The notes beneath the pieces are model-generated. The model had not been told where the DNA came from and ran no database searches. It saw only the letters and a program-made list of their open reading frames with translations. This document shows positions 21,265-39,257 of a DNA stretch of 64,000 bases, in pieces. Both the position numbers and the translations under genes were made by a program. This DNA comes from Burkholderia plantarii. Lineage in GTDB: Bacteria; Pseudomonadota; Gammaproteobacteria; Burkholderiales; Burkholderiaceae. The stretch lies in contig NZ_CP007213.1 in assembly GCF_001411805.1 (NCBI RefSeq), positions 806,001 to 870,000 of the forward strand, in the 5' to 3' direction. Each line of letters opens with the position of its first letter. Positions within the stretch are counted from its first letter, which is position 1.

Positions 21265-21269
21265 GGTGC

Positions 21270-23073: not shown

Positions 23074-23126
23074 GACATGATTCGACATCAAGTTTTACAG
23101 TCGCCAAATTTGGCCGCCTTCGATTC
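23074..23126 (+). promoter_or_regulatory. GACAT tandem-repeat promoter, site 1 (two-component pair)
   Basis: GACAT at 23074-23078 is repeated at 23084-23088, exactly 10 bp on. ACAG follows at 23097, and CGATTC at 23121 stands 18 bp after the ACAGTC hexamer. The same layout occurs upstream of four other transcription units in this window (27145-27197, 28004-28056, 37240-37293, 38281-38334). Tandem half-sites one helical turn apart, just before the -35, are typical of OmpR-family activator sites. Confidence 0.65.
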
Positions 23127-23261
23127 TGTGTAAGCTGCTTCCCGGTATCGGCTCGCAGTCCGTACGCCGGTCGCGCGTGGAGATCCACCCGGCCCGCGGC
23201 TCGCGGCTCGATGGCGCCGAACCATCCTGTATCGCCGCATTCGCCCGTCAAGCGCACACCC

Positions 23262-24029
23262 ATGTCAAGAGATCCGACCTCGCCTCCCGAACCACTTCGC
23301 GACCGCATCCTCGTGCTCGACGACGAAACCGAGATCCGCCAGATGCTGCAGCGCTATCTCATCGCGCAGGGCTTCGAGGTGCGCGCGGTCAAGGACGGCA
23401 TGCAACTCGACGCGTGCCTGGAGCGGCAGCCGTACGACCTGCTGGTGCTCGACATCATGATGCCGAAGGAGGACGGGTTGGCGGTGTGCCGGCGCCTGCG
23501 CGCGCAAGGTCAGACGATTCCGATCCTGATGCTGACCGCGCGCGGCGATCCCGTGGATCGCGTGATGGGGCTCGAGATGGGCGCCGACGATTACCTCGCC
23601 AAGCCGTTCGTGCCGAGTGAGCTGGTCGCGCGCATCCGCGCGATGCTGCGGCGCAGGACGCTCCTGCTGCGCCAGGCCGGGCAGCTCGGCGGCATCGTCG
23701 CCGACGCCGACGCGCCGGCGCTGCGCTTCGGTCCCTATCGGCTCGACGTGCGCCGCCAGGAGCTGTTCCGCGACGCGAGCCTCCTCGAGATCGGCTCGGC
23801 GGAAATGCGCCTGCTGTGCGCGCTCGCGTCGGCGCCGAATCGCCCGCAGAGCCGGGACAGCCTGCTCGAGCGCGCGAGGGGCCGTGAATACGGCGCGCTG
23901 TTGCGCAGCGTCGACGTGCAGGTGCTGCGCCTCAGGCAGATGCTCGAGGACGACGCGTCCAAGCCGCGCCACATTCGCACCGTGTGGGGCGTCGGCTACA
24001 TGTTGATAGCCGAATACGAGGCGTCATGA
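23262..24029 (+). CDS. OmpR-family response regulator
   Basis: This 255-residue regulator has a receiver domain with acidic pocket D20/D21 and phospho-acceptor D64 (LLVLDIMMP), a conserved Lys in YLAKPFVPSELVARI, and a C-terminal winged-helix domain ending in HIRTVWGVGYML. The ATG at 23262 gives a normal N-terminus. It overlaps its histidine kinase by 4 bp (ATGA) and is preceded by a GACAT tandem promoter. The divergent RND operon is a likely target. The 5' leader from the predicted start site is about 130 bases. Confidence 0.92.
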   Translation: MSRDPTSPPEPLRDRILVLDDETEIRQMLQRYLIAQGFEVRAVKDGMQLDACLERQPYDLLVLDIMMPKEDGLAVCRRLRAQGQTIPILMLTARGDPVDRVMGLEMGADDYLAKPFVPSELVARIRAMLRRRTLLLRQAGQLGGIVADADAPALRFGPYRLDVRRQELFRDASLLEIGSAEMRLLCALASAPNRPQSRDSLLERARGREYGALLRSVDVQVLRLRQMLEDDASKPRHIRTVWGVGYMLIAEYEAS

Positions 24030-25351
24030 GCCCGTGGCCGAGGTCCCTGCTGGGACGGAACTTCCTGCTGCTGGTGGCGCTGGCGCTGGCCAGCCAGGCC
24101 GCCGTCATCACCGTGTTCCTGACCTTCATCCAGAAGCCGCGGATCGACGATGCCGCGTCCCTCGTGGCCTCGCAGATCGTCGCCATGCAGAAGCTGCTGG
24201 CCGCCCTGCCTGAGCACGAGCGCAGCCGCGAACTGCTGGGGCTGAACGGCATCCCGCAGGAGGCGGTGCCGTTCGAGCGGATGCGCGGCGAGCCGCCGTC
24301 GGGCTATGTGCTGCACGTGTTCTTCGAGGGTCTCGAGGCGCGGCTGCCGCCCGACACGACGATTCGCTGGGAACGCGAGGGCGAGCGTCGTTTCTGGGTA
24401 CGGCTGAACGTCGGTGGCCGCTACGACTGGGTGATGTGGCATCCGGGCTCGGCGGTCGCCCACGTGCTGCCATGGGGTTTGATCTGCCTGTTGCTGACGG
24501 TGGCGACGGTACCCGTGCTCGGTGCCTATTTGATGCACCGTCCGGTGGACGCCGCATTGCGGCGCCTGGCGCGCGCGGCGGCCACCGTCGAGCGCGGCGA
24601 ATGGCCCGACGCGGTGCCCGTGACGGGACCGCGCGAGCTCGCCACGGTGGCCGAAGCGTTCAACCGGATGGTCGCCGTGCTCGCCGATCTCGAGGCTACG
24701 CGCACGGAGATGCTGGCGGGCATTTCGCACGACATCCGCACGCCGCTGACCAAGCTGCGCCTCGTGGTGGCCGCGCCGGACGCGTTCGAGGCAGCGCAGG
24801 CCAGCGCGGAGCGCTTCATTCAGGATATCGACATGATCGTGCAGCAGTTCATCGATTTCGCGCGCGGCTGGAACGACGAGGCGGTCGTCGCCTGCGACCT
24901 GAACGAACTGATCTCGCAGCTCGCCGCCGACTACACCGGTCTCGGGCATTCGTTCGAGGCATCGCTGGAACCGCTGCCGCCGATTCCGGTGCGCCAGATC
25001 AGCCTGCAGCGCCTGTTGATGAACCTGATGCAGAACGCGGTCGTGTACGGCCGCACCGGGCTCGCCGTGCGCACCCGCGCCGAGCCGGGATGGGCGATCG
25101 TGTGCGTCGAGGATCGCGGCCCGGGCGTGCCCGATGCGATGCTGCCGCTGATCATGCAACCGTTTCGGCGCGGCACGCAGGACAGCGGGAAGGGCGGCAC
25201 GGGCCTCGGTCTCGCGATCGTGGCGCGCATCGCCTCGCAACATGGCGGCCGCCTCGAACTGTCGGCCAACCGCCCGCACGGCCTGATTGCCACGGTTCGG
25301 CTTCCGCTCGCGCCGCCGCGCGCGAGCGGCGCGCGTCTGCGCGTTCCCTGA
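24026..25351 (+). CDS. sensor histidine kinase
   Basis: This 441-residue inner-membrane kinase has a membrane helix at about residues 10-32, a periplasmic domain of about 120 residues, a second helix near residue 155, a HAMP linker, an H-box with H235 (GISHDIRTPLTKLRL), an N-box (NLMQNAVVYGR) and a G-box (GKGGTGLGLAIV). It is EnvZ-like in layout and translationally coupled to the response regulator. As the only histidine kinase seen here, it may also serve the orphan regulator at 26292-27041; that is inference. Confidence 0.92.
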   Translation: MSPWPRSLLGRNFLLLVALALASQAAVITVFLTFIQKPRIDDAASLVASQIVAMQKLLAALPEHERSRELLGLNGIPQEAVPFERMRGEPPSGYVLHVFFEGLEARLPPDTTIRWEREGERRFWVRLNVGGRYDWVMWHPGSAVAHVLPWGLICLLLTVATVPVLGAYLMHRPVDAALRRLARAAATVERGEWPDAVPVTGPRELATVAEAFNRMVAVLADLEATRTEMLAGISHDIRTPLTKLRLVVAAPDAFEAAQASAERFIQDIDMIVQQFIDFARGWNDEAVVACDLNELISQLAADYTGLGHSFEASLEPLPPIPVRQISLQRLLMNLMQNAVVYGRTGLAVRTRAEPGWAIVCVEDRGPGVPDAMLPLIMQPFRRGTQDSGKGGTGLGLAIVARIASQHGGRLELSANRPHGLIATVRLPLAPPRASGARLRVP

Positions 25352-25353
25352 GG

Positions 25354-25379
25354 GCGGCACGAAGCGGGACCCGTGCCGC
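25354..25379. terminator. hairpin between convergent kinase and mipA genes
   Basis: GCGGCACG at 25354-25361 pairs with CGTGCCGC at 25372-25379 across a 10-base loop, directly after the kinase stop. It could end transcription from both sides, although no T-run is present. Confidence 0.35.
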
Positions 25380-25408
25380 GCCGCGCGCGAGCACGCCGGC
25401 GCTCGTGA

Positions 25409-26227
25409 TCAGAAGTGGTAGGCGACGCCGAATGCGCCGAACATGCTGGTGCGCCGCTCCACTATCGGGCTGTCGGCGGCGTCGCCGAGCAGCGTGCCGA
25501 CGCCGAGGCTCGTGTTCATCGACCAGTGCCGGTTCAGGCGATGGTCCCAGGTCGTCTTGAAGTCGACCTTCGAGAACCCCGACGACGGCCGGTACACGGG
25601 CAGCCCGGCCGCGCTGTTCGCCGCCTGCTCCTCGTCGATGCCGAAATACGTGCGCTCGGCCGGACCGTTGGACCAGACGGTGTCCACCCCCACCGAGATC
25701 CGGTCGCCCGCGGCCTGGTACACCGTGTAGGCCACGCTCAGCGTCACGTGATTCCCGTATCCGGCATGGGCGGACTGCAGGAACTCGAGGTTCGCGCTGG
25801 CCGGGCCGTCGTGCCAGCGCGCGAACGCGCCGTACTCGAATGACGTGGCGATGTCGCCGGTGCCGTCGAGGATCGCCGCGTCGCCCTGGTCGCGGCCGCG
25901 CTCCGCGCCGACCAGCAGGCCCGCCGACAGCGACGGCGTCAGCGCGAAGGCGACGCCGCCGTCGAACCCCTGCACGAAGAACGTGACGCGCGAGCCGGTG
26001 CCGCTCGACAGGTTCAGCACCGGCAGCGGCCGGATGCGATAGGACTTGCCGCCGTCGTAGCGCGGCACGACGGCCGCGTCGAGGCCGATGCCGTTCTCCG
26101 GCGCGGCGCTCTGCGCGAAGGCGGGCGCGCCGTGCAGCAGGGTGCCGCCGAGCACGGTGCAGGCGAACAGGGCACGGCGCGCGGGCAGCCACGCGGGAAT
26201 ACGTCGCGTGAGTCGAAATGGAGACAT
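25409..26227 (-). CDS. MipA/OmpV-family outer-membrane protein
   Basis: This 272-residue precursor has a signal peptide with an Ala-rich cleavage region (GAPAFAQS) and a beta-barrel ending in aromatic GAFGVAYHF, as expected for an outer-membrane barrel. MipA was named for binding MltA; homologues are often under two-component control and are linked to responses to cationic peptides and other envelope agents. It follows the orphan regulator by 64 bp with no promoter motif between, so the two probably form one operon. Confidence 0.85.
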   Translation of the reverse strand: MSPFRLTRRIPAWLPARRALFACTVLGGTLLHGAPAFAQSAAPENGIGLDAAVVPRYDGGKSYRIRPLPVLNLSSGTGSRVTFFVQGFDGGVAFALTPSLSAGLLVGAERGRDQGDAAILDGTGDIATSFEYGAFARWHDGPASANLEFLQSAHAGYGNHVTLSVAYTVYQAAGDRISVGVDTVWSNGPAERTYFGIDEEQAANSAAGLPVYRPSSGFSKVDFKTTWDHRLNRHWSMNTSLGVGTLLGDAADSPIVERRTSMFGAFGVAYHF

Positions 26228-26291
26228 GAGAGCGAAAGGATCGGTTGATGGAGCGGGTTGGAAGAACGGGTCCAGGCGTGGCGGCGCCGGC

Positions 26292-27041
26292 TCACACGGC
26301 GGCGAGGCGCGCGGCGTCGATGTCGTCGTGCGATTCGACGTCCGGCACGAAGATGTAGCCGAGCCCGCGCACGGTCTGGATGAAGCGCGGCATCGACGGA
26401 TTCGCCTCGAGCACGCGGCGCAGACGCCATACCGCCACGTCGATCGTCCGATCGGTCGCGGCGTCGAGGCTGGGCCCGTGCAGCGTCTTGCGCAGGCGAT
26501 CGCGCGTGAGCGTGCGCATCGGCGCGTCGACGAATACCTTCAGAAGCGCGAATTCGCTTTCCGAGATGGCCAGCCGGTGCTGTCCGGCGCGCAGCGTGCG
26601 CGCCTGGAAGTCGAGCGTGTAGTGACCGAACCGGTAGGGCGCGCGCAGCAGCGGCGCGGCGGACGGCAGTGGATGCGCGTGGCGGCGCAGCACGGCGCGA
26701 ATCCGGGCCACCAGCTCGCGCGGGTTGAACGGCTTGACGAGGTAGTCGTCGGCACCGAACTCGAAGCCGATCACGCGGTCGCTTTCGTCCGCGCGGGCGC
26801 TCGTCAGGATCACCGGCAGGTCGTCGCCGGTGTTGCGCAGGTCGCGCAGCACGCCGAGTCCGTCGAGGCCCGGCAGCGCGACGTCGAGCACCGCGAGCGC
26901 GGGGCGCCGACGCGTGATGCTGCTTGCCAGCGCGCGGCCGTCGTCGAGCAGCGCGACCTCGAAGCCGCACGCGGTGAGGTAGCTGTTCAGCAAATTCCGC
27001 AGCTCGGGATCGTCGTCGACGACCAGAATCCGATTCGACAT
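26292..27041 (-). CDS. orphan OmpR-family response regulator
   Basis: This 249-residue regulator has receiver-domain acidic residues D9-D11, phospho-acceptor D53 (LAVLDVALPGLDG), a conserved Lys in YLVKPFNPRELVARI and a winged-helix effector domain ending in TVRGLGYIFVP. No kinase gene adjoins it. It heads an operon with mipA and carries a GACAT tandem promoter about 105 bp upstream, suggesting autoregulation. Start at 27041 (MSNRILVVDDD) was preferred; 27056 would add five residues. Confidence 0.9.
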   Translation of the reverse strand: MSNRILVVDDDPELRNLLNSYLTACGFEVALLDDGRALASSITRRRPALAVLDVALPGLDGLGVLRDLRNTGDDLPVILTSARADESDRVIGFEFGADDYLVKPFNPRELVARIRAVLRRHAHPLPSAAPLLRAPYRFGHYTLDFQARTLRAGQHRLAISESEFALLKVFVDAPMRTLTRDRLRKTLHGPSLDAATDRTIDVAVWRLRRVLEANPSMPRFIQTVRGLGYIFVPDVESHDDIDAARLAAV

Positions 27042-27144
27042 AGTGATGGAAGGCATGCTCGAGTGAGACCCGCGACGCTCCGTGGCGGATCGGCGCCGAT
27101 CGTGAACCATGCCCCGCGCCGTCGTGCCCGGGGCTCCACGACGC

Positions 27145-27197
27145 AATGTAGGGAAGTCGCCCCCGCGCAGCTGTAGCAAATCATGTCGGCGCGTGTC
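27145..27197 (-). promoter_or_regulatory. GACAT tandem-repeat promoter, site 2 (orphan regulator and mipA)
   Basis: On the minus strand GACAC (27197-27193) and GACAT (27187-27183) are 10 bp apart, ACAGCT is at 27174-27169, and TACATT is at 27150-27145 after 18 bp. The spacing equals that of sites 4 and 5 between ACAGCT and the -10. The presumed start lies about 95 bp before the regulator start codon. Confidence 0.68.
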
Positions 27198-27425
27198 GCC
27201 GGTGGCGCGCGGCCTCGGCGAGCGGCGCGCCGAACATGAAACCCGCGACGCGATTCGCGGCAGGGCGCGGCCGGGAAAGCGCCGTGACGCGTCGGGCCGG
27301 TCGTTGATCGATAACGGTTCGGCGGAGGTGGAAACGCTTCGTCATGGTGATGGCGCGAACGCGAGTGGCCGCGATCAGCCTGACTCGATAAGATCGGCGC
27401 ATCACTTTCAAGCGGAGATTCGACC

Positions 27426-27974
27426 ATGCGATTTTTGTTGGCATTCCTGCCGGCCTTGTCGTTTTTCGTGATGCAGCGCATTGCCGGAGTGCATCTCGCC
27501 CTCGTCGTGGCGGCGCTCGCGGCGGCGGGGCGCATCGCGTTCTACCTGCTGGTGTGGCGCACCGGTGTCAGGGCATTCGACCTCGGCTCGCTGCTGATCT
27601 TCGGCGGGCTCGCTGCCTGGGAGCAACTGACGGGGGCCAGCCTGTCGTTCGCCGAGATCCGGCTCGTGATCGATGCCGGTCTGATGCTGGTCGCGCTGAT
27701 CTCGGTGCTGGCCGGACGACCGTTTACGCTGCAGTATGTCGAGCGCGGGACCCCGACCCACCCGCGGCTGCTCCAGGCCCACGCGGGCATCAGCGCGGCG
27801 TGGGCCGCGGCGTTCGCGGGCATGGACATGATCGACTTCGTGTGGATCGTCCATCCGGGCTGGCCGCAGGTCGCGCTGCTCGGCGCGACGGCGCTGCTCG
27901 GCTTCGCCGCGTTGCGCTTCACGCGATGGTATCCGCGCCGTCTCGGCCTGCGCGCGGCGGCCGCGCCGCGCTGA
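27426..27974 (+). CDS. multi-pass inner-membrane protein, function unknown
   Basis: This 182-residue protein is almost entirely hydrophobic, with about five or six predicted membrane helices and a short basic C-terminus (RFTRWYPRRLGLR). The overall look resembles septation-protein-A-like or small DUF membrane proteins, but no diagnostic motif was seen. It stands alone between the orphan regulator and the lipoprotein-mdtABC operon. The GACAT site 3 lies after its stop and points away from it. Confidence 0.7.
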   Translation: MRFLLAFLPALSFFVMQRIAGVHLALVVAALAAAGRIAFYLLVWRTGVRAFDLGSLLIFGGLAAWEQLTGASLSFAEIRLVIDAGLMLVALISVLAGRPFTLQYVERGTPTHPRLLQAHAGISAAWAAAFAGMDMIDFVWIVHPGWPQVALLGATALLGFAALRFTRWYPRRLGLRAAAAPR

Positions 27975-28003
27975 GCCACCGGCCGGGGCCGCCGCTTGGC
28001 AAT

Positions 28004-28056
28004 GACATGCGGCGACATCTTTCATTACAGCGCGTCATGCCTCGACGCGCGACACT
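28004..28056 (+). promoter_or_regulatory. GACAT tandem-repeat promoter, site 3 (lipoprotein and mdtABC)
   Basis: GACAT at 28004-28008 and 28014-28018 are 10 bp apart, ACAG is at 28027, and GACACT at 28051 sits 18 bp after the ACAGCG hexamer. The -10 is the weakest of the five, so activation may be needed. The site lies inside the longer open frame starting at 27996, which argues that the real lipoprotein start is 28095. Confidence 0.62.
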
Positions 28057-28094
28057 TCGGGCCCTGCTCATGGCCGCGCCTCCGGAGTTACTTC

Positions 28095-28307
28095 ATGCCC
28101 CCCGTCTCGTTCCGCATCGTGCTCGCCGGTATCGCCACCACGGCCGCGCTGGCCGCCTGCACGTCGTTTCCGCACGGCACGCCGCCTGACCAGTCGGATC
28201 CCGCCATGCACGGCTTCGACGACGTCGATCGGCACCCGACCTGGAGCAACTGCCAGAGCCGCTGCGTCGTCGACGGCCGCCCGCGGTGCTGCGAGACGGC
28301 CGACTGA
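28095..28307 (+). CDS. small Cys-rich lipoprotein
   Basis: This 70-residue precursor has a lipoprotein signal (IVLAGIATTAALAAC). The mature part is about 48 residues and ends in a cluster of four cysteines (NCQSRCVVDGRPRCCETAD). The Cys pattern may bind metal or form disulfides in the periplasm; no family was recognised. It is the first gene after promoter site 3 and 96 bp before the adaptor gene, so it is probably co-transcribed with the pump. Confidence 0.65.
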   Translation: MPPVSFRIVLAGIATTAALAACTSFPHGTPPDQSDPAMHGFDDVDRHPTWSNCQSRCVVDGRPRCCETAD

Positions 28308-28403
28308 CCGGACCGCGGACGCGGCGCCCGGCGGCCGGTGCCGCCGCGATGCCGTTCCAGGCCGCCCCGGGTTTCCTTCCTTCTTCTGTATCCCGCTCGA
28401 GCG

Positions 28404-29528
28404 ATGAAAAAGTGGTTCGTATGGTTCGGTATCCTGATCGCCGTGCTGGCTGTTGCTGTCGTGGCACGACGCTTGCATCGCATCGACCTCGCGCGGCACG
28501 AGGCGAGTGCCACGGCCTCGGCCGCCACGCCGGTCGGCGCCGTGACGGTGAGGGTGGCCGACGTGCCGGTGTACGTCGATGCGCTCGGCACGGTGACGCC
28601 GACGCGCACCATCATCGTGGTGCCGCAGGTCAGCGGCGTGCTCGAATCGGTGGAGGTGGACGAAGGGCAGACGGTGCGCAAGGGCCAGGTGATCGCGCAC
28701 ATCGATTCGCGTGCGCTCGAGGCGCAACTGCAGCAGGCGCGCGGCACGCTCGCGCACGACGAGGCGCTGCTCGCCAACGCGCGCGCCGACCTGCAGCGCT
28801 ACCGCGCGCTGATCGACGCCGGTTCGATCACGCGCCAGACGCTCGACACGCAGGCGGCCACGGTGCGCGAGGCGCAGGGCACGGTGCAGGCCGACGCCGG
28901 CAGCGTGCGCAATCTCGAGGTGCAGCTCGGCTACTGCACGATCCGCTCGCCGGTGGACGGTGCGATCGGCCTGCGTACGGTCGACCCCGGCAATTACGTG
29001 ACCAGCGCCAACGCCTCCGGTATCGCCGTGATCACGCAACTGCAGCCGGCAACCGTGGTCTACGCCGTGCCAGAGGACACGCTCGGCGCCATTCGCCGTG
29101 CCATGGCTGCGGGCCCGGTCCCGGTGCTCGCCTACGATCGCGACAGGCACACGCTGCTGGCGCGGGGCGCGTTGCTCGCCGTGGACAATCTCGTCAACAC
29201 CTCGACCGGCACCGTCAACGTGAAGGCGCGCTTCGCCGAATCCGGCGCAGCGCTCTACCCGAACCAGTTCGTCAACACGCGGATGCGCGTCGATACGCTC
29301 GCGCGGGTGCCGGTGGTGCCGAGCGTCGCGATCCAGCACGGCTCGAACGGCGACTTCGTGTTCGCGCTCGACGCGGCCGGCCATGCACGACTGCGCCGGA
29401 TCAAGGCGGGCCCCGCGCTCGGCGACGAGACGGCGATCGTCGACGGCCTGAAAGCCGGCGAGCGCGTGGTGACCGAGGGCGCCGACCGACTCGACGACGG
29501 CTCGCCCGTGACCGTCGCGGCTCACTGA
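28404..29528 (+). CDS. RND periplasmic adaptor, MdtA-like
   Basis: This 374-residue membrane-fusion protein has a single N-terminal membrane anchor (WFGILIAVLAVAVVA), lipoyl half-motifs (VVPQVSGVLESVEVDEGQTV and CTIRSPVDGAIGLRTVDPG), a coiled-coil hairpin and beta-barrel domains. No lipobox cysteine is present. It is followed 15 bp later by two different RND permease genes, the hallmark of MdtABC-type pumps, which assemble a heterotrimeric permease. Confidence 0.9.
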   Translation: MKKWFVWFGILIAVLAVAVVARRLHRIDLARHEASATASAATPVGAVTVRVADVPVYVDALGTVTPTRTIIVVPQVSGVLESVEVDEGQTVRKGQVIAHIDSRALEAQLQQARGTLAHDEALLANARADLQRYRALIDAGSITRQTLDTQAATVREAQGTVQADAGSVRNLEVQLGYCTIRSPVDGAIGLRTVDPGNYVTSANASGIAVITQLQPATVVYAVPEDTLGAIRRAMAAGPVPVLAYDRDRHTLLARGALLAVDNLVNTSTGTVNVKARFAESGAALYPNQFVNTRMRVDTLARVPVVPSVAIQHGSNGDFVFALDAAGHARLRRIKAGPALGDETAIVDGLKAGERVVTEGADRLDDGSPVTVAAH

Positions 29529-29543
29529 GCGGAGCGCTCGACG

Positions 29544-32500
29544 ATGAACGTTTCCCGTCCCTTCATCGAGCGACCGATCGCCACTTCGCTGGCGATGATC
29601 GCGCTGCTGCTGGTCGGCGTTGCCGGCTATCTGCTGCTGCCGGTCTCGGCGCTGCCCGAGGTCGACTATCCGACCATCCAGGTCTACACGCGCGATCCCG
29701 GGGCGAGCCCGGAGGTGATCGGTTCGTCGATCACATCGCCGCTGGAGCGGCAGCTCGGCCAGATGTCGGGGCTCAAGAGCATGCGCTCGACGAGCTCGGA
29801 CGGCACCTCGATCATCACCATGCAGTTCGATCTCGCGCTGTCGCTCGACGTCGCCGAGCAGGAGGTGCAGGCGGCGATCAATGCGTCGTCGAGCTATCTG
29901 CCCGCGAACCTGCCGTACCCGCCGGTGTACAGCAAGGTCAACCCGGCCGACGCGCCGGTGCTGCGCCTGTCGCTGACCTCGAACGTGCTGCCGCTGACGA
30001 AAGTCGAGGATCTGGCCGACACGCGCCTCGCGCAGAAGATCTCGCAGATCTCGGGCGTCGGCCTGGTGACGATCGACGGCGGGCAGCGGCCGGCCGTGCG
30101 GGTCCAGGCGGACATGGCCGCGCTCAATGCGCTCGGACTGTCGCTCGAGGATCTGCGCGGCGCGCTCGGCAAGGCCAACGTCAACCAGGCCAAGGGCAGC
30201 CTCGACGGCAGCCGGCAGTCGTACGCGATCGGCGCCGACGACCAGCTGACGACGGCCGCCGACTATCGCGACCTGATCATCGCGTATCGCAACGGCGCGC
30301 CGGTCCGGCTGTCGCAGATCGCCCGATCGGTCGACGCGAGCGAAAACGACGAACAGGCGGCCTGGACCAACGGCACGCCGTCGATCGTGCTCGACATCCG
30401 GCGGCAGCCGGGCGCGAACGTGATCGCGGTGGTCGATCGCGTGCGCAAGCTGCTGCCGCAGTTGAGCGCGAACCTGCCGGCATCGGTGCATCTGGCGGTA
30501 TCGACCGACCGCACCGCCACGATCCGCGCCTCGATCGCCGACGTGCGGCTCGAACTCGCGACCGCCGTGGCGCTGGTGGTGATGGTGATCTTCGTGTTCC
30601 TGCGTAATCTGCCGGCCACCTTGATTCCGGCCGTCACGGTGCCGCTTTCGCTGACCGGCACGCTGGCGCTCGCGTATGCGGCCGGCTTCTCGCTGAACAA
30701 CCTGACGCTGATGGCGCTCACGGTGGCCACCGGCTTCGTGGTCGACGATGCGATTGTCGTGATCGAGAACGTCACGCGCTTCGTCGAGCGCGGCGCGGCA
30801 CCGCTGGAGGCCGCGCTGAACGGCGCCAGGCAGATCGGCTTCACCATCGTGTCGCTGTCGGCGTCGCTGATCGCGGTGATGATTCCGCTGCTGTTCATGG
30901 GCGACGTGGTGGGGCGGCTGTTCCGCGAATTCGCGGTGACGCTGGTGCTGGCGATCGCGCTGTCCGCGTTCGTCTCGCTCACGCTGACGCCGATGATGTG
31001 CGCGCGCTTGCTCAAGCCCGGCTCGCGGCGGCACCGCGACGACTGGGTCGATCGCATCAACCGCGGCTACCTGCGCGCGCTCGATACCGTGCTCGACCAC
31101 CCGCGCGCGACGCTGGCGTTGGTGGCCGCCACCGCGCTGCTGACGCTCGCGATGCTGGCGGCGATGCCGAAGGGCTTTTTCCCGCGGCAGGACACCGGCT
31201 CGATCGAGGGCGTCGTGCTGGGGCCACCCGGCACTTCGTTCGTCGGCATGGCGGTGCTGCATCGGGAGGTCGCGGCGCGCCTCGCGCGCGATCCGGCGGT
31301 GGCCGGCCTGAGCGCGTTCGTCGGCATCGACCAGACCCGGCCGGTGCTGAACCAGGCCACGCTGTCGATCGACCTGAAGGACCGGCGCGCGCGCGACGGC
31401 ATCGACGCGGTGATGCGTCGGCTCGCGCGGGACGGCGCCGGCGTGGCGGGCGCCCGGCTGTTCCTGCATCCGGTGCAGGACCTCACGCTCGACGACTCGA
31501 CGGCGCCGTCGGCGTACAGCCTCGGCGTGCAGTCGGCCGACGCGGCGCTGCTGGCGCGCTGGAGCGGCGTGCTGGTTGACGCGCTGCGCCACGATGCGGC
31601 CTTCGCCAACGTGCAGAGCATGGCGATGCAGCGCGGCAGCCAGGTGCGGCTGCGCTTCGACCGTGACACGGCCGCCCGGCTCGGCGTGACGCCGCAGGCG
31701 ATCGACGACGTGCTGTACGACGCGTTCGGCCAGCGCCAGGTGTCGACCCTCTACACGCAGGTCAACCAATACCACGTGGTGCTGGTATCGGGCGATCGCG
31801 GCGCCGATCTCGCGCATCTGCTGTCCGGGCTGTACGTGAACACCGCGTCCGGAAAGCTCGCGCCGCTCGCGGCGATGGCGAGCATGGAGGTGGTGCCGGT
31901 GCCGGTACGCATCGATCGCCAGGCGCAGTTTCCGTACGCCGACATCGGCTTCGATCTGCCTCCGCACACGAGCCTCGGCGCCGCGATCGCCGAGCTCGAG
32001 CGCGTGAAGCGGCGCGTCGGCCTGCCCGTCTCGGTGCAGGTGTCGCTCGAGGGATCGGCCGCGCTGTTCCAGGATTCACTGAGCCGCGAGGCGCTGCTCG
32101 TGTTCGCCGCGGTGGTGGTGGTGTATCTCGTGCTCGGCGTGCTGTACGAAAGCTTCGTGCATCCGCTGACGATCCTGTCGACGCTGCCGTCGGCCGCGTT
32201 CGGCGCGCTGCTGGCGCTGTTCGCGTCGGGCACGCCGTTCGACGTGATGGGCCTGATCGGCATCGTGCTGCTGATCGGCATGGTGATGAAGAACGCGATC
32301 ATGATGATCGACTTCGCGCTGGCGGCGCGGCGCGAGCAGGGGATGTCGGCGCGCGACGCGATCCGCAGCGCGGCCGCGCTGCGCTTTCGCCCGATCCTGA
32401 TGACCACCATGGCATCGCTGTTCGGCGCGCTGCCGCTCGCGTTCGGTACCGGCATCGGCTCGGAGCTGCGCCATCCGCTCGGCGTCGCGATCATCGGCGG

Positions 32501-32612
32501 CCTGTGCGTGAGCCAGTTGCTGACGCTGTTCTCGACGCCGGTCATCTATCTGGCGCTGCAGCGCGTCGAGGCGCGCCGCGGCGCGGTGCGCCCGGTGGAG
32601 CGCGCGCGATGA
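29544..32612 (+). CDS. RND efflux permease subunit, MdtB-like
   Basis: This 1022-residue transporter starts MNVSRPFIERPIATSLAMIA and contains 12 predicted helices, two periplasmic porter domains and the helix-4 acidic motif VDDAIVVIENVTRF. MdtB-type subunits pair with MdtC and in enterobacteria export bile salts, novobiocin and other agents, often under envelope-stress control. Its stop overlaps the next gene by 4 bp (ATGA). Confidence 0.92.
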   Translation: MNVSRPFIERPIATSLAMIALLLVGVAGYLLLPVSALPEVDYPTIQVYTRDPGASPEVIGSSITSPLERQLGQMSGLKSMRSTSSDGTSIITMQFDLALSLDVAEQEVQAAINASSSYLPANLPYPPVYSKVNPADAPVLRLSLTSNVLPLTKVEDLADTRLAQKISQISGVGLVTIDGGQRPAVRVQADMAALNALGLSLEDLRGALGKANVNQAKGSLDGSRQSYAIGADDQLTTAADYRDLIIAYRNGAPVRLSQIARSVDASENDEQAAWTNGTPSIVLDIRRQPGANVIAVVDRVRKLLPQLSANLPASVHLAVSTDRTATIRASIADVRLELATAVALVVMVIFVFLRNLPATLIPAVTVPLSLTGTLALAYAAGFSLNNLTLMALTVATGFVVDDAIVVIENVTRFVERGAAPLEAALNGARQIGFTIVSLSASLIAVMIPLLFMGDVVGRLFREFAVTLVLAIALSAFVSLTLTPMMCARLLKPGSRRHRDDWVDRINRGYLRALDTVLDHPRATLALVAATALLTLAMLAAMPKGFFPRQDTGSIEGVVLGPPGTSFVGMAVLHREVAARLARDPAVAGLSAFVGIDQTRPVLNQATLSIDLKDRRARDGIDAVMRRLARDGAGVAGARLFLHPVQDLTLDDSTAPSAYSLGVQSADAALLARWSGVLVDALRHDAAFANVQSMAMQRGSQVRLRFDRDTAARLGVTPQAIDDVLYDAFGQRQVSTLYTQVNQYHVVLVSGDRGADLAHLLSGLYVNTASGKLAPLAAMASMEVVPVPVRIDRQAQFPYADIGFDLPPHTSLGAAIAELERVKRRVGLPVSVQVSLEGSAALFQDSLSREALLVFAAVVVVYLVLGVLYESFVHPLTILSTLPSAAFGALLALFASGTPFDVMGLIGIVLLIGMVMKNAIMMIDFALAARREQGMSARDAIRSAAALRFRPILMTTMASLFGALPLAFGTGIGSELRHPLGVAIIGGLCVSQLLTLFSTPVIYLALQRVEARRGAVRPVERAR

Positions 32613-35600
32613 AGCCGTTCTCGCCGTTCGTGCGCCGCCCGGTCGCGACCAGCCTGATGGCGATCGCGATAGCACTGTGCGGCCTGCTCGGGTTCCGCCT
32701 GCTGCCGGTCGCGCCGCTGCCCGAGATCGACTTCCCGACCATCAGCGTGCAGGCACGCCTGCCGGGCGCGAGTCCCGAGCTCGTGGCCGCCTCGGTGGCG
32801 ACGCCGCTCGAGCGCCAGTTCGGCCGGATCGCCGGCGTCACGCAGATGACCTCGGTCAGCTCGCTGGGCCAGACCCAGGTCACGCTGCAGTTCGATCTGG
32901 CGCGCAACATCGACGGCGCGGCGCGCGACGTGCAGGCGGCCATCAACGCCGCGCGCACCAATCTGCCGGCCAGTCTCGACGGCAACCCGACCTGGCGCAA
33001 GGTGAACCCCGCCGATTCGCCGATCCTCGTGATCGGCCTGACCTCCGGGGTGGCCACCCCGGGGCAGCTCTACGACGCGGCCTCGACGGTGCTGCAGCAG
33101 AAGCTGATGCAGACGCCGGGCGTCGGCAACGTGGTGGTGGGCGGCGCGGCCCTGCCCGCCACCCGGATCGAACTGAATCCGGAGCGCGCGAGCCATTACG
33201 GCATCGGCCTCGAACAGATCCGCTCGGTGATCGAGAGCGCCAACGTCGACCTGCCGAAGGGGTCGGCCGTGTCGGGTGCGCGGGCCTACGGCATCGGCGC
33301 CGACGACATGCTGTACGCGCCGGACGATTACGCGCGCCTCGTCGTCAGTCAGCAGAACGGGCGGATCGTGCGCGTGGCCGATCTCGGCACGGTGCGCGAG
33401 GACGTCGAGAATCTGCAGAACTACGGCCTGTCGAACGGCAGGCCCGCGGTGCTGCTGATCGTGTACCGGCAGCCGGGCGCGAACGTGATCGAGGCCGTGG
33501 AGAACGTCAAGGCCGCGCTGCCGGCGCTCGAGGCGGCCATCGTGCCGATCGCGCCGTCGGTCCGGATCGCGATCGACGTCGATCGCACCAAGACGATCCG
33601 CGCCTCGCTGCGCGACGTCGAGACCACGCTGCTGATCTCGATCGTGCTGGTGACGGCGGTCACGTTCTGCTTCTTCCGCTCGTGGCGCACCACGCTCGTG
33701 CCGGCCGTCATCGTGCCGCTGTCGCTGCTCGGCACCTTCGCCGTGATGGCCTGCCTCGGCTACAGCCTCAACAACCTGTCGCTGATGGCGCTGACCATCT
33801 CGACCGGCTTCGTGGTCGACGACGCGATCGTGGTGGTGGAGAACATCATGCGACACCGCGAGCTCGGCAAGGCGCCGCTCGACGCCGTGCTGGCCGGCGT
33901 GGCCGAGGTGGGCTTTACGGTGTTCTCGATCAGCGTCTCGCTGGTGGCCGTGTTCGTTCCGCTGCTGTTCATGGGCGGCCTGGTGGGCCGGCTGCTGCGC
34001 GAGTTCTCGGTCACGCTGTCGGTCGCGATCGCCATGTCGATGCTGCTGTCGCTGAGCGTGGGGCCGATGCTGATGAGCCGCGTGATGCGCGGCGCGGCGC
34101 CGGACGCCGGTGAGCGCGGGACGGCGATGTCCGGGCCGGTCGACACGACGGCCGTCGCGGGCCGCCTGCATCGGTTCTACGCGCGCTCGTTGCGATGGGT
34201 CGTCGCGCACCCGCTGCTGATGGGCGGCGTGACCGTGCTCGTGTTCGCGGTGAACCTCGCGCTGTTCGCGGCGGCGCCGAAAGGCTTCTTTCCGCAGGAA
34301 GACACCGGGCTGCTGCTCGGCACCCTGCAGGCCCCGCAGGCCATCTCCTATCTCGAGATGCAGCGCCAGTTCCGCCTCGTCAACGCGCGGATCGGCGCCA
34401 ATCCGAACGTCGCCTTCGTCGGCGGCGTGGTGGGCGGTTCGAACGCGCTGAACCATGCGTTGCTGTTCGTCTCGCTCAAGCCGCTCGGAGCGCGGCGCGC
34501 CGGCGCCGACGCGGTGATCGGCCAGTTGCGCGCGCAACTGGCCGGCCTGCCGGGTTCGCAGCTGTATCTGCAATCGGTGCAGGACCTGTCGGTGGGCGGC
34601 CGCCAGAGCGGCGCGCAATATCAGTACACACTGACGGCCACCGATCAGGCCACGCTCGACCGCTGGGTGCCGAAGGTGGTGGCCGCCCTGCGCGGCCTGC
34701 CCGCGCTCGCCGACATCAACACCGATCAGCAGGACGACGGCCTGCAAGTGCGGGTCGACGTCGATCGCGAGCTGGCGACGCGGCTTGGCGTCGATGTCGA
34801 TACGATCGACCAGACGCTCTACGACGCCTTCGGCCAGCGGCAGGTGTCGACCGTCTATCGCGCGGCGAACCAGTATCACGTCGTGATGGAGGTGGCGCCG
34901 TCGAACCGGACCGACCCGACCGTGCTGCGCAGTCTCTACGTGCCCGCCGGCCTCGCGCCCGCCAGCCTGAACGGTGCCGCCGCGCGAGCCGGCATGCCGG
35001 CGGCGACACCGTCCGCCGCGGCGACCGCGAGCGGCACCGCGCTGGTGCCGCTCGCCGCGTTCGCGCGTCTGGCAACGGGTCGCACCGCCATCGCCATCAA
35101 TCATCAGGCAAGCTTTCCGGCCATTACCGTGTCGTTCAATCTGCGCCCGGGCGCCTCGATTGGACCGGTGACCAGGCAGATCGAGCGCGCGGTCGCCGCG
35201 CTGAACCTGCCGGCGGACGTCGGCGGCGCGTTCGCGGGCACGGCGCAGGCGTTCGCGCAGTCGCTGTCGAGCGAGCCGTGGCTGATCCTGGCCGCGCTGC
35301 TGTCGGTGTACGTGGTGCTCGGCATGCTTTACGAGAATCTCGTGCATCCGCTGACGATCCTCTCCACGCTGCCGTCGGCTGGTGTCGGTGCGCTGATCGC
35401 GCTGCGGGCCACGCACACCGAGCTGTCGATCATCGCGCTGATCGGCGTGCTGTTGCTGATCGGCATCGTCAAGAAGAACGCCATCATGCTGATCGACTTC
35501 GCCCTGAAGGAAACGCGCGAGCGCGGCGCCACGCCCGAGGACGCGATCCTGCGCGCCGGCATCGCGCGCGTGCGCCCGATCATGATGACCACGCTCGCGG

Positions 35601-35788
35601 CGATCTTCGGGGCGCTGCCGCTGGTGCTCGGCGGCGGCTACGGCGCCGAGTTCCGCTGGCCGCTCGGCGTCTCGATCATCGGCGGCCTGCTGTTCAGCCA
35701 GCTGCTCACGCTCTACACCACTCCGGTCATCTATCTCTGGTTCGACCGCGCATCGCGGCGCCAGCGAACCCGCAGGCAGGCTTCATGA
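32609..35788 (+). CDS. RND efflux permease subunit, MdtC-like
   Basis: This 1059-residue transporter starts MKPFSPFVRRPVATSLMAIA and has the same fold as the preceding gene, with VDDAIVVVENIMRH in helix 4. A roughly 25-residue Ala/Pro/Thr-rich insertion near residue 790 (AAARAGMPAATPSAAATASG) in the second porter domain is longer than usual. It is coupled by ATGA overlaps to both neighbours. The two permeases differ enough to be true MdtB/MdtC partners rather than a recent duplication. Confidence 0.92.
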   Translation: MKPFSPFVRRPVATSLMAIAIALCGLLGFRLLPVAPLPEIDFPTISVQARLPGASPELVAASVATPLERQFGRIAGVTQMTSVSSLGQTQVTLQFDLARNIDGAARDVQAAINAARTNLPASLDGNPTWRKVNPADSPILVIGLTSGVATPGQLYDAASTVLQQKLMQTPGVGNVVVGGAALPATRIELNPERASHYGIGLEQIRSVIESANVDLPKGSAVSGARAYGIGADDMLYAPDDYARLVVSQQNGRIVRVADLGTVREDVENLQNYGLSNGRPAVLLIVYRQPGANVIEAVENVKAALPALEAAIVPIAPSVRIAIDVDRTKTIRASLRDVETTLLISIVLVTAVTFCFFRSWRTTLVPAVIVPLSLLGTFAVMACLGYSLNNLSLMALTISTGFVVDDAIVVVENIMRHRELGKAPLDAVLAGVAEVGFTVFSISVSLVAVFVPLLFMGGLVGRLLREFSVTLSVAIAMSMLLSLSVGPMLMSRVMRGAAPDAGERGTAMSGPVDTTAVAGRLHRFYARSLRWVVAHPLLMGGVTVLVFAVNLALFAAAPKGFFPQEDTGLLLGTLQAPQAISYLEMQRQFRLVNARIGANPNVAFVGGVVGGSNALNHALLFVSLKPLGARRAGADAVIGQLRAQLAGLPGSQLYLQSVQDLSVGGRQSGAQYQYTLTATDQATLDRWVPKVVAALRGLPALADINTDQQDDGLQVRVDVDRELATRLGVDVDTIDQTLYDAFGQRQVSTVYRAANQYHVVMEVAPSNRTDPTVLRSLYVPAGLAPASLNGAAARAGMPAATPSAAATASGTALVPLAAFARLATGRTAIAINHQASFPAITVSFNLRPGASIGPVTRQIERAVAALNLPADVGGAFAGTAQAFAQSLSSEPWLILAALLSVYVVLGMLYENLVHPLTILSTLPSAGVGALIALRATHTELSIIALIGVLLLIGIVKKNAIMLIDFALKETRERGATPEDAILRAGIARVRPIMMTTLAAIFGALPLVLGGGYGAEFRWPLGVSIIGGLLFSQLLTLYTTPVIYLWFDRASRRQRTRRQAS

Positions 35789-37241
35789 TTTCCCTTGACC
35801 GTTTTCGTGCGGCCCCGCGCCGCTGCGCGTTTGCCGTGATCGCCGCCGCGTCGGCGGCCGCGCTGCTGGGGGCCGGCTGCACGGCGGGCCCGGACTACCA
35901 TCGACCGGCACTGGCCGTGCCCGCGCAATTCAGGGAGGCCGGCGCGCAATGGCGGCGCGCGGCGCCCGATCCACTGAAGGCGGTGTCGAGCCGCTGGTGG
36001 GACGATTACCACGATCCGGTGCTGTCGCGGCTGGTCGACGACGCGCTGCGCGCCAATCCCACCATTGCCGCGGCGCAGGCGTCGTGGCGCCTGGCCCGAG
36101 CCACGGTGGCGGCGGACCGGGCCAGCCTGTGGCCGACGCTCGGCCTCGACGCGTCGGGCTCGCGCGGGCAGAGCACGCCGTCGTCGCGCTTTTCCGGGGC
36201 CGCCGGTCCGTTGCTGTCCGAGCAGCTCGGCGGCGTGCGAAACACGGTGTCGCTGTCGGGCAGCGCCAGCTGGGAGCCCGACCTGTGGGGCGCCGCGCGG
36301 CGTCAGCTCGAGTCGGGCAAGGCCAGTGAGGCGGGCGCCGCCGCCACGCTGGCCGGCCAGCAGCTGTCCATCGCGGCCAGCGTCGCGACCAGCTACCTGC
36401 AGCTGCGCCAGTGCGATCTCGACGTCGATCTGCTGCAAGGGCAGCGCGAGATCGACGCGCGCCTGCTGGTGATCGCGGGCGCGGCCTTCGATCACGGCAC
36501 GGCCTCGAACGACGACGTGCTCGACGCGCGCGCGAGCAGGCCGAGCACGCGCTCGCGGTGTGGACCGGCGTGCCGCCCGCGTCGTTCTCGATCGCGCCGG
36601 ACCCCGACTACGCGTTTCGCGAGCCGGCCGAGCCGGCCGCGCTGCCGTCCACGCTGCTCGAGCGACGGCCCGACGTGGTCGGCGCCGAGCGCGCGGTGGC
36701 CGCCGCCAACGCGCGTATCGGTGTGGCCGAGGCGGCCTTCTTCCCGAGCCTGGACCTCGGCGCGCAGGGCGGCTTCCAGCACGACAGCCTCGCCAATCTG
36801 CTGTCGATGCCGAACCGCGTCTGGGCGGTGGGGCCCGCTCTCGCCGCCAGCCTGTTCGACGGCGGCGCGCGGCGCGCGGCGGTGCGCGAGGCCGAGGCGA
36901 CCTACGACCAGCAGGTTGCGAATTACCGGCAGACCGTATTGAGCGCATTCCAGGGCGTGGAGGACAGCCTCTCGAACGTCAACCATCTGCGCGAGCAGAC
37001 GCGCGCGCTCGATGCCGTCTATCGCATTGATCTGCAGCTGTTCGACAGCGCGCGCGCGAAGGCCAGCGCGGGGACCGCGAGCACGCAGGCCGTGCTCGCG
37101 CAGCAGCTCGCGGTGCTCGGCGCGCGCCAGAACCTCGTCGACATGCGGTCGGCGCTCGCGCAGGGCGACGTCGCGCTCGTCAGGAACCTTGGCGGCGGCT
37201 GGGACGGCGCGGCTGCGGCGCACGCGAGCGAACGGCGCTGA
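35785..37241 (+). pseudogene. outer-membrane efflux lipoprotein of the Mdt pump, frameshifted by deletion
   Basis: The 5' part encodes a lipobox (ALLGAGC), the NodT start TAGPDYHRPA and the first OEP repeat up to GTASNDDVLDAR near 36,530. The remainder, from EQAEHALAVWTGVPPASF to the C-terminus at 37241, lies in another frame. Family members carry about 20 more helix residues at this point. The break sits in a GCGCGCGAG-like repeat, consistent with a deletion between short direct repeats whose length is not a multiple of three. The pump may therefore lack its own exit duct or use the intact duct at 16619-18100. Confidence 0.8.
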
Positions 37242-37293
37242 CATGTACCGACATGGTTTTCCAACAGCTTGTTCGAGGCCACGTCCTTACATT
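37240..37293 (+). promoter_or_regulatory. GACAT tandem-repeat promoter, site 4 (Cys-repeat secreted protein)
   Basis: GACAT at 37240-37244 and 37250-37254 are 10 bp apart, ACAGCT is at 37264-37269 and TACATT at 37288-37293 follows after 18 bp. The first half-site overlaps the stop codon of the outer-membrane pseudogene. The downstream gene starts at 37336, about 35 bp after the expected start site. Confidence 0.68.
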
Positions 37294-37335
37294 GGAAGCG
37301 TTGGGAACGTAACGTTCCCGTTCACGGAGTCGATC

Positions 37336-38247
37336 ATGAATACACGGATTTCACGCGGCACGCTGGCCGCGTGCCTGCTGCTGGCGAGCCACGTCGCGCT
37401 CGCCCACGTCGCGTCGTTCGCGACACCATGGTCACGCGGCGGCCGATACGGCTCGTGCGGCGGCGGCAGCTGCTCGCACGGCGGCGCGGTCGAAGGCAGG
37501 TACGGCGGCGTCGCGGCCGATCACGGCACGATCACGCGCACCGCGCCCGGGCAGTTTTCGAACAGCGGCACGGCCACCGGGCCCGGCGGACGCAGCTACG
37601 CGCACGGCGGGGACACGAGCTGCGGCGGCGGCACCTGCACACATACGGGCAGCGTGACCGGGCCGGACGGCCACTCGGTCAGCACGAGCGGCAGCGTGAC
37701 GCGAAACGGCGCGGGCCAGTATTCGTCGTCGGGCGCGCTCACCGGCCCGCGCGGGACAACGACGCGCAGCGGTTCGACCGATTGCGGCGCGGGCACCTGC
37801 ACGCATTCGGCCAGCGTCAGCGGCCCGAACGGCAACTCGGTGAGCCGCACCGGCACCGCCGCGCGCATCGCGCCTGGCGTCGTGGCGACCTCGCGCACCA
37901 CGACGGGCCCGCACGGCGTCACGATCGGCACCGGCGGCGTGGTGGTCGGGGCGGGTGCGGTGGCGCCGGGGCCGGCGGTCGGTCCGCATGCGGTCGTGGT
38001 GTCGCCCGGGCGCGCCCCGGTGGTGGTCGCGCCGGGGCCGGCGGTCGTGGTGGGGGCCGCGCCGCCGGTGCTCGCGCCGGTTCCGCTGCCGGTCGCCGCG
38101 CCGGTGGTGGCGGCACCGGTCGCGGTGGTGGGCGTCACGCCCGTGGTGGCCGCGCCGGCGGTGATCGTCCATGCGCCCCCCCGGCCGACCGTGTGGATCC
38201 GCGGGCATTGGGCCGGCGGGGTGTGGGTGCCCGCGCACCGCTTCTAG
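37336..38247 (+). CDS. secreted Gly/Ser/Thr-rich Cys-repeat protein
   Basis: This 303-residue precursor has a signal peptide (LAACLLLASHVALAHV). The N-terminal half holds three spaced repeats of the form C-G-x-G-x-C-[ST]-H (CGGGSCSHGG, CGGGTCTHTG, CGAGTCTHSA) separated by G-x-x-[ST]-rich stretches resembling TGPDGHSVS and TGPRGTTTR. The C-terminal half is a Val/Pro/Ala-rich tail ending PTVWIRGHWAGGVWVPAHRF. Cys pairs beside His suggest metal or disulfide sites; the function is unknown. It has its own copy of the GACAT promoter. Confidence 0.7.
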   Translation: MNTRISRGTLAACLLLASHVALAHVASFATPWSRGGRYGSCGGGSCSHGGAVEGRYGGVAADHGTITRTAPGQFSNSGTATGPGGRSYAHGGDTSCGGGTCTHTGSVTGPDGHSVSTSGSVTRNGAGQYSSSGALTGPRGTTTRSGSTDCGAGTCTHSASVSGPNGNSVSRTGTAARIAPGVVATSRTTTGPHGVTIGTGGVVVGAGAVAPGPAVGPHAVVVSPGRAPVVVAPGPAVVVGAAPPVLAPVPLPVAAPVVAAPVAVVGVTPVVAAPAVIVHAPPRPTVWIRGHWAGGVWVPAHRF

Positions 38248-38280
38248 CGCGGTGCGATCTCGCGGTCGCCGACCGGCCCC

Positions 38281-38334
38281 GACATCGGGCGACACATGTT
38301 TTCAACAGCTTGTAGCGGGCACTTTCGCTAGATT
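38281..38334 (+). promoter_or_regulatory. GACAT tandem-repeat promoter, site 5 (small envelope-protein operon)
   Basis: GACAT at 38281-38285 and GACAC at 38291-38295 are 10 bp apart, ACAGCT is at 38305-38310 and TAGATT at 38329-38334 follows after 18 bp. Between sites 4 and 5 the stretch TTTTC(C)AACAGCTTGT is nearly identical, suggesting local duplication of promoter and gene. Confidence 0.68.
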
Positions 38335-38398: not shown

Positions 38399-38671
38399 AT
38401 GAAGACACTTCGACTTGCCCTTCTTTCCGTGATCGCCACCGGCTCCGCGCTGGCCGCCCAGGGCGCCTTTGCCGGCGTCGTGGCGGTCGGTATCGGGGTG
38501 CCGGCCGCCCCCTTCGTGATGGCGCCCGCGGTGCCCGTGTATCCCGTGCCGGTGGCGGTCGCCGCGCCGGTGGTGGCCGCGCCGGTGGTGGTCGCCCCGG
38601 GCCCGGCCGTGGTGGTGCGGACCGGCTATGTGTACCGCCCGACGGTACGCGCCGCCGTGATCGTGCGCTGA
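38399..38671 (+). CDS. small secreted Val/Pro/Ala-rich protein
   Basis: This 90-residue precursor has a clear signal peptide (ALLSVIATGSALAAQGAFA). The mature part is low-complexity, built of AAPVV, APVVV and PVPV units and ending VRAAVIVR. It resembles the Val/Pro-rich tail of the protein at 37336-38247, suggesting partial paralogy. No catalytic motif is present. It heads a likely three-gene operon with spacings of 25 and 32 bp. Confidence 0.65.
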   Translation: MKTLRLALLSVIATGSALAAQGAFAGVVAVGIGVPAAPFVMAPAVPVYPVPVAVAAPVVAAPVVVAPGPAVVVRTGYVYRPTVRAAVIVR

Positions 38672-38696: not shown

Positions 38697-39257
38697 ATGA
38701 ACGACATCCAGAACCGGCGACGTGTTTCGCGATGGCGGTGCGCAGCCGGCCTCGCGACGGTGTTCGCGCTGGCCGGTTGCGCGGTCGAGCCGCCGAGCAA
38801 TCCGACCGTGATGGCGCTGCCCGCGAAGGGCAAGAGCCTGAACGAGTTCCAGCAGGACGACTACGGCTGCCGCAACGTCGCGAGCCGCGCGGTCCAGCCG
38901 CAAGCCGATTCGCCGGGCGCGCGCAACGGCGCGCTCGCCGCCGCGGCGCTCGGCGGCGCCGGCGGCGCCGCGGTCGGTGCCCTGATCGGCTCGGCCTCGG
39001 GCAACGCGGGGCCCGGCGCGGCGATCGGGGCCGGCGTGGGCCTGCTGGCGGGCGGCGCCAGGGGCTCGCAGCAGCGCGCGCAGACGGCCGCCTCGTTGCA
39101 GCAGCAATACGACAACGCGTACGCGCAGTGCATCACCGCGAAGGGCGACGTGATCGAGGCGCCGCAGCCGGCGCCGGTGGCGTGGGTACCCGTGGTGACC
39201 GCCGCGCCGCCGCCGGTGGTCTACGCGCCGGCGACCTACTACTACGTACCGCGCTGA
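38697..39257 (+). CDS. glycine-zipper lipoprotein
   Basis: This 186-residue precursor has a lipobox with Cys28 (VFALAGC). After LNEFQQDDYGCRNVAS comes a glycine-zipper stretch (AAALGGAGGAAVGALIGSAS, residues about 80-110) typical of YMGG/OmpA-linker-like envelope proteins, then a Gln-rich helix with YAQCITAKG and a Pro/Tyr-rich tail ending YYYVPR. The zipper may insert into or pack against the outer membrane. It follows the 38399 gene closely and is probably co-transcribed. Confidence 0.75.
   Translation: MNDIQNRRRVSRWRCAAGLATVFALAGCAVEPPSNPTVMALPAKGKSLNEFQQDDYGCRNVASRAVQPQADSPGARNGALAAAALGGAGGAAVGALIGSASGNAGPGAAIGAGVGLLAGGARGSQQRAQTAASLQQQYDNAYAQCITAKGDVIEAPQPAPVAWVPVVTAAPPPVVYAPATYYYVPR

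Follow-up and report, generated by a model that had tools for sequence, protein, structure and literature searches.

Genes and boxes at the locus

The window analysed here is a 64 kb stretch of the Burkholderia plantarii genome (C2:806001-870000 of 8,081,051 bases, or 8.08 Mb, in three contigs), which contains a two-component system consisting of a response regulator (RR1) and a sensor kinase (HK), together with five promoters that carry a tandem repeat of the pentamer GACAY. Judged from its sequence, the stretch is predicted to be a self-contained unit that controls envelope proteins together with a drug-efflux pump; its tandem repeats (boxes) would probably serve as the operator of RR1. RR1 (23262..24029, plus strand) contains Response_reg and Trans_reg_C domains and is the predicted reader of the boxes, and HK (24026..25351, plus strand) is an EnvZ-like sensor kinase with HAMP, HisKA, and HATPase_c domains. 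By the domains of both regulator and kinase, RR1-HK is an OmpR/PhoB-family two-component system. Both proteins fall below the equivalog cut-offs for EnvZ/OmpR proper, as the best NCBIfam model for RR1 is OmpR (NF007005) at 288.6 bits (cut-off 331), and HK scores 241.8 bits against the EnvZ model NF007004 (cut-off 415). Many homologues of RR1 have a solved structure.

An earlier note on this DNA had described five tandem GACAT/GACAC sites, each followed by ACAG 23 or 24 bp on and by a -10-like element at a fixed spacing, and direct reading of the sequence finds all of these features where they were placed. The five sites have the form GACAY-N5-GACAY (an exact box) and are the only exact matches to this pattern in the window. 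Box 1 (23074..23100, plus strand, GACATGATTCGACAT) reads GACAT-N5-GACAT and lies in the promoter of RR1-HK, while box 2 (27171..27197, minus strand, GACACGCGCCGACAT) reads GACAC-N5-GACAT and lies in the promoter of a second regulator gene, RR2, and mipA. Box 3 (28004..28030, plus strand, GACATGCGGCGACAT; GACAT-N5-GACAT) precedes a lipoprotein-mdtABC unit, box 4 (37240..37267, plus strand, GACATGTACCGACAT; GACAT-N5-GACAT) a secreted Gly/Ser-rich protein, and box 5 (38281..38308, plus strand, GACATCGGGCGACAC; GACAT-N5-GACAC) a small secreted protein. ACAG begins at +23 in the sites at 23074, 27197, and 28004 and at +24 in those at 37240 and 38281, and the -10-like hexamers begin at offset 47 in the first three and 48 in the last two. 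The distance from ACAG to the -10 element is therefore constant. The -10 elements are TACATT (boxes 2 and 4), TAGATT (box 5), GACACT (box 3), and, for box 1, a weak element near 23121-23127 (plus strand); they score 8.1-8.5 bits for boxes 2, 4, and 5, 4.9 for box 3, and -1.4 for box 1. In all five units the start codon lies approximately 30-130 bases past the inferred transcription start, as counted by hand.

Box 2 faces RR2 (26292..27041, minus strand), an orphan OmpR-family regulator with receiver and DNA-binding domains (253.0 bits against NF007005, under the cut-off of 331) and a predicted target of the system, which is followed by a MipA-family outer-membrane protein (25409..26227, minus strand; PF06629, 141.6 bits). 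The first gene downstream of box 3 is a small lipoprotein-like open reading frame with no Pfam match (28095..28307, plus strand). This is followed on the same strand by an MdtA-like periplasmic adaptor of an RND pump (28404..29528; TIGR01730 at 224.2 bits, over its cut-off, and NF008589 at 342.7, under its cut-off of 391) and by two RND pump subunits matching PF00873, one MdtB-like (29544..32612; best NCBIfam model MdtB, NF007798, 1300.3 bits, cut-off 1584) and one MdtC-like (32609..35788; best NCBIfam model MdtC, NF007905, 1225 bits, cut-off 1774). The pump thus matches the general RND adaptor and ACR_tran models and falls below the equivalog cut-offs for MdtA, MdtB, and MdtC alike. The start and end of the outer-membrane-factor gene that closes this operon (35780-37243) lie in different frames, with the switch near 36.41-36.5 kb, which may reflect an interruption or a sequence error.

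Box 4 precedes the secreted Gly/Ser/Thr-rich protein (37336..38247, plus strand), which belongs to no Pfam or NCBIfam family and has homologues at many RR1 loci. The unit behind box 5 contains a small Pro/Val-rich secreted protein with no Pfam match (38399..38671, plus strand) and, downstream, a glycine-zipper lipoprotein-like protein (38697..39257, plus strand; PF13488, 31.5 bits). By eye the Pro/Val-rich protein resembles one encoded at a related locus, L061, and relatives of that protein face boxes at loci L062 and L095. A second RND efflux operon (16619-22628, minus strand) adjoins RR1 and has no exact box of its own.

Rarity of the box in the genome

A genome-wide motif search, suggested in the earlier note, supports the distinctness of the five sites. 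The pattern GACAYN5GACAYN{6,11}ACAG has six matches in 8.08 Mb, five of which are these sites, and the reversed control has one. Random placement would put five of six matches within 15.2 kb of 8.08 Mb with a probability of ~8e-11, a value that is partly post hoc, as these five sites themselves supplied the pattern. The sixth, at C1:1167371, falls within long open frames and is given 3.7 bits by a weight matrix trained on 42 sites, none of them from the window. In a scan of the window with this matrix, the five boxes take the top five places (21.1, 33.3, 32.1, 35.1, and 31.7 bits for boxes 1 to 5), followed by a sixth place at 5.0 bits; the best score in ten shuffled windows was 18.1.

That the five promoters resemble one another by chance could be argued from the plain core alone, as with one mismatch allowed the window contains 11 matches where 5.8 are expected, an unremarkable number that 5 of 100 shuffles reach. 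This explanation is contradicted by the genome-wide rarity of the full pattern, by the independently trained matrix, and by the conservation described below, and its probability is negligible.

The earlier note had proposed that the sites mark a candidate envelope/efflux regulon. A shared operator is supported by the comparative results below, and by the exact pattern the regulon is clustered about the regulator gene and does not extend across the genome. Further members elsewhere in this genome were sought with GACAYN5GACAYNNNTT and rejected, this pattern adding only one match (C2:3725217), at which no -10 element is visible at offset 48. The match directly precedes a long open frame that by eye is RND exporter-like.

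Conservation at RR1 loci in related genomes

Relatives of RR1 were collected within the genus (E up to 1e-70; 22 of 65 genomes, including its own) and within the family (E up to 1e-84; 78 of 249 genomes). The resulting set of 62 RR1 loci (1.10 Mb in total) is made up of the window from 18 to 42 kb and 61 others, which comprise all 21 remaining genus loci and, from the 75 matches beyond the genus, 40 picked to span RR1 identity and genera. These loci contain 139 exact boxes, where three Markov resamples of each locus predict ~7.3. The spacing of the half-sites is equally distinctive, as the 139 direct pairs at 10 bp compare with 3 to 28 pairs at each other period from 7 to 17. A matrix site of at least 20 bits, the threshold used at the level of loci, is present in 59 of the 62, a figure limited by the fact that the locus sites are partly the training data of the matrix. 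The three exceptions are L096, L098 (a contig of 6.3 kb), and L108. Loci L111, L118, and L127 have no exact box and contain strong variants with a -10 element at 48. Divergent half-site pairs (RTGTC-N4/5-GACAY) are also common at the 62 loci, with 42 and 38 pairs at 9 and 10 bp, and perhaps arise from back-to-back boxes.

The register between box and promoter is conserved as well. Among 78 non-redundant boxes (<80% identity; overlapping frames of the L077 array described below and some likely chance copies are included), a hexamer matching TATAAT in at least 4 of 6 positions begins at offset 48 in 33, and no other offset between 30 and 60 has one in more than 4. In a few loci the -10 element lies near 58, one turn further out, which fits a helix-face rule in cases too few to count for much. 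The boxes are, by their sequence, arranged in the operator layout of the OmpR/PhoB family, with direct-repeat half-sites about one helical turn apart placed upstream of the putative -35 element.

The fixed spacing to the -10 element would also be expected if the box were a core-promoter element for an alternative sigma factor, and a related possibility is that it is the site of an unrelated factor carried near RR1 by chance. The arrangement of two half-sites one helical turn apart argues against both versions, as does locus L077 (G037:C4), where a stretch ~1.9-2.0 kb upstream of RR1 contains ten successive GACAT half-sites, most of them GACATACCGC, at 10-bp steps. Both are further opposed by the tie between the location of the boxes and RR1 and by the resemblance of the -10 elements to ordinary TATAAT, and together they are very improbable. 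The number of half-sites in the L077 array is far beyond the need of one dimer.

The ACAG pattern has 46 matches in 24 of the 65 genus genomes; of those outside the B. plantarii genome, six are beside RR1 orthologues and 34 are scattered. The six occur as pairs in genomes G014, G017, and G021, beside orthologues of RR1 (66-68%), HK, and MipA, with an orthologue of the secreted protein also present at the G017 and G021 loci. The promoters in these three genomes retain -10 elements, among them TACAGT, TACATT, and TACTTT.

Two subgroups of RR1 loci can be distinguished. In the subgroup that includes the window (RR1 63-71% identity), ACAG or ACG is mostly kept after the box. The second, larger subgroup (RR1 59-66% identity) has boxes of the form GACAY-N4-C-GACAY-ATTT, often with CGTGG where ACAG stands, and in its promoter-like copies the -10 element TACAGT is still 48 bp from the box start. 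At L063 and L075, which belong to the second subgroup and were read gene by gene, the genes for RR1 and HK share an operon with those for a secreted protein and an EF-hand protein, and all six upstream stretches examined in this subgroup show the EF-hand gene starting. A small secreted EF-hand-like gene was recognized by eye ahead of RR1 in several loci (L061, 9170-9442; L063, -366 to -61 from RR1) and is not seen ahead of RR1 in the window. Its presence is a hint of a divalent-cation link. All 18 genus loci of the second subgroup have a further box 2.1-2.4 kb past the RR1 start; CATACT stands at its offset 48, and a small lipoprotein-like gene comes next. As noted at L063-L080, this gene follows HK, and its box is strongly conserved at 36-40 bits.

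At L101, L123, L126, and L129, the segment that ends at RR1 contains an EF-hand gene and an RND pump and has a box upstream of it. These pumps are only 28-35% like that of the window, and because of this low identity an RND pump seems to have been joined to the RR1 system more than once.

Probable specificity for RR1

The earlier note had tentatively attributed the boxes to one OmpR-type regulator and left open which. A variant of the box, GACAYN5GACAYAWTT (the AWTT variant), offers a way to relate boxes to RR1, its counts by RR1 presence being tallied by hand before a Fisher test. It is present in 21 of the 65 genus genomes, which divide into 19 of the 22 with RR1 and 2 of the 43 without (Fisher 2e-11); the three RR1 genomes from which it is absent are G017, G021, and that of B. 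plantarii. At RR1 loci lie 59 of the 67 matches in the genus, and the other eight comprise four on other contigs of G027 and G051, in which RR1 is near a contig end, and four elsewhere. Outside the genus the variant occurs in 27 of the 70 genomes with RR1, compared with 9 of the 148 without it (Fisher 8e-9), and 22 of the 29 matches in RR1 genomes are within 8 kb of RR1.

The regulator-region DNA of 16 other regulator loci, taken as a control, contains 3 exact boxes in 326 kb. No exact box was found at 27 out-of-family OmpR-like regulator loci, two of them at 57-58% identity to RR1, when the surrounding 1.5 kb, or as much of it as the contig offers, was searched; two RR1 loci trimmed likewise contain 3 and 1. 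The recognition helix of RR1 is RSVDVQVLRLRQ, and RS[VI]DVQ[VI]LRLRQ is found in 55 of the 62 RR1 proteins. The most diverged helix, RIVDMQVWRIRQ, is that of L096, one of the loci without a box and thus a natural control of one. Five of the other helix variants do have boxes.

RR2 is the other regulator to be considered, as it is an OmpR-family protein with receiver and DNA-binding domains encoded within the cluster and might read the boxes alone or in competition with RR1. Several observations speak against such a role. In the 64 other genus genomes RR2 is matched at 61% at best, and nearly all of them encode a regulator ~59% like it, which is also found on the largest contig of the B. plantarii genome. 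RR2 groups with this largest-contig regulator rather than with RR1, and the locus of the latter, the nearest relative of RR2 in the genome, contains no exact box. Boxes are also present at RR1 loci with no visible RR2-like gene above 50%, and the RR2 helix, RTIDVAVWRLRR, is unlike that of RR1. Because of the absence of any match above 61% in the genus and the different recognition helix, RR2 looks like a target of the boxes rather than their reader, and a reading role for it is unlikely. Of the two regulators, the evidence thus points to RR1.

Comparison with characterized systems

Among the known systems close to RR1-HK is E. coli EnvZ/OmpR, in that OmpR and EnvZ are the best-scoring models for RR1 and HK, and the OmpR target is described, in the part of the source available, as 20 bp containing two tandem 10-bp half-sites (PMC7380067). 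In contrast to EnvZ/OmpR, both proteins are under the model cut-offs, the exact sites are local, and the RR1 helix contains L-R-L-R-Q where 25 of the 27 out-of-family OmpR-like loci have S-R-L-R-[KR] (of the remaining two, one has L-R-L-R-R and one a helix that the search expression did not match).

The available part of the report on BqsRS of Pseudomonas aeruginosa describes an operator, TTAAG-N6-TTAAG, with pentamers about one turn apart, one copy of which overlaps the -35 element in the promoter studied (PMC4682146). The box GACAY-N5-GACAY differs from it in both pentamer and spacer. That report gives 432 BqsRS operators, with up to two mutations allowed (PMC4682146), whereas five of the six exact matches here are at the locus of RR1 itself, although the two counts were made differently.

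BesRS of Burkholderia thailandensis is, in the portion of its description available, an envelope-responsive pair encoded on chromosome 2, with a regulon that includes a MipA-family gene and efflux genes and with the cis element TGCGGCCACAAATTTGCACGCA (PMC9426598). The box is not TGCGGCCACAAATTTGCACGCA, and in G017 and G021 the RR1 locus is found on the largest contig, unlike besRS. BesRS was set aside as the identity of RR1-HK on the basis of the replicon and cis element described in that portion, and not by sequence. AgrR of Cupriavidus metallidurans, an OmpR-family activator in silver resistance, is thought to act from a type II position, according to the part of the paper available, and ATTACA forms an inverted repeat in its core box, in contrast to the direct repeat of GACAY in the RR1 box (PMC7380067). 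A further paper, PMC10197871, is by its available part unrelated to the RR1 system. No literature on the RR1-HK pair or the GACAY box was found among the open-licence papers listed, as judged by title and the start of the abstract. RR1-HK is apparently an uncharacterized OmpR-like two-component system with a conserved, predicted tandem operator, and it is unusual mainly in the locality of its exact sites.

Proposed mechanism and implications

Taken together, the results suggest that the boxes are the operator of RR1 and that RR1 activates all five units, a reading to which we assign a probability of about 0.83. The proposal in the earlier note of an OmpR-family activator site beside the -35 element is supported by the 10-bp period, the fixed -10 register, and the conservation at RR1 relatives in other genera, from which binding would follow by inference.

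Several points weigh against this reading. The -10 element of the promoter of RR1 itself is poor and that at 28004 is weak. Only 6 of the 40 ACAG-pattern matches outside the B. plantarii genome are at RR1 loci, the other 34 being scattered, and ACAG is typical only of the subgroup of the window, the larger subgroup having other letters. The AWTT variant has no match in the B. plantarii genome itself, is found outside the genus in only 27 of 70 RR1 genomes, with 7 of the 29 matches away from RR1, and was drawn from loci where it was then found, such that its independent tests are limited to its absence elsewhere and to the other genera. Finally, L108 lacks a box despite an ordinary helix.

In the proposed mechanism, HK would phosphorylate RR1, and two RR1 DNA-binding domains would then occupy the two half-sites head to tail, separated by one helical turn and immediately before the -35 element. 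Counting 12 bases from the start of the -10 element to the transcription start, the box would extend from about -60 to -46, next to the -35 element, where RR1 could contact RNA polymerase and help it at promoters whose own -35 is poor. The position of RR1-HK behind a box predicts a loop that feeds back on itself, and that of RR2 behind another box would make this second regulator an output that the system turns on.

OmpR-family regulators are capable of both activation and repression, and position by itself is no proof of activation, such that RR1 might bind the boxes mainly as a repressor. The boxes, however, lie ~46-60 bp before the inferred starts, upstream of the -35 element and not on the core promoter, and the -35 elements are poor, a geometry that points to activation and makes a mainly repressing RR1 improbable.

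With RR1 as the predicted activator, the controlled set, which comprises secreted proteins, MipA, a lipoprotein, and an RND pump, and elsewhere an EF-hand protein, is suggestive of a response to compounds that disturb the envelope. A more tentative proposal, which we consider possible and somewhat less probable than its opposite, is that the locus is a portable regulon cassette. RR1-HK and its operator would then act as an address label with almost no effect outside its own locus, and by being captured alongside it, otherwise unrelated genes for the envelope (different RND pumps in different genera and, here, a second OmpR-type regulator) would come under envelope-stress control.

These findings provide a two-component system that is widespread in Burkholderiaceae with a predicted operator, promoter geometry, and target list. 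The signal and the role of the system in envelope defence and efflux become testable, and its regulon becomes readable in related genomes. An operator that is nearly confined to one locus would also offer a clean case for the growth of local regulons by gene capture.

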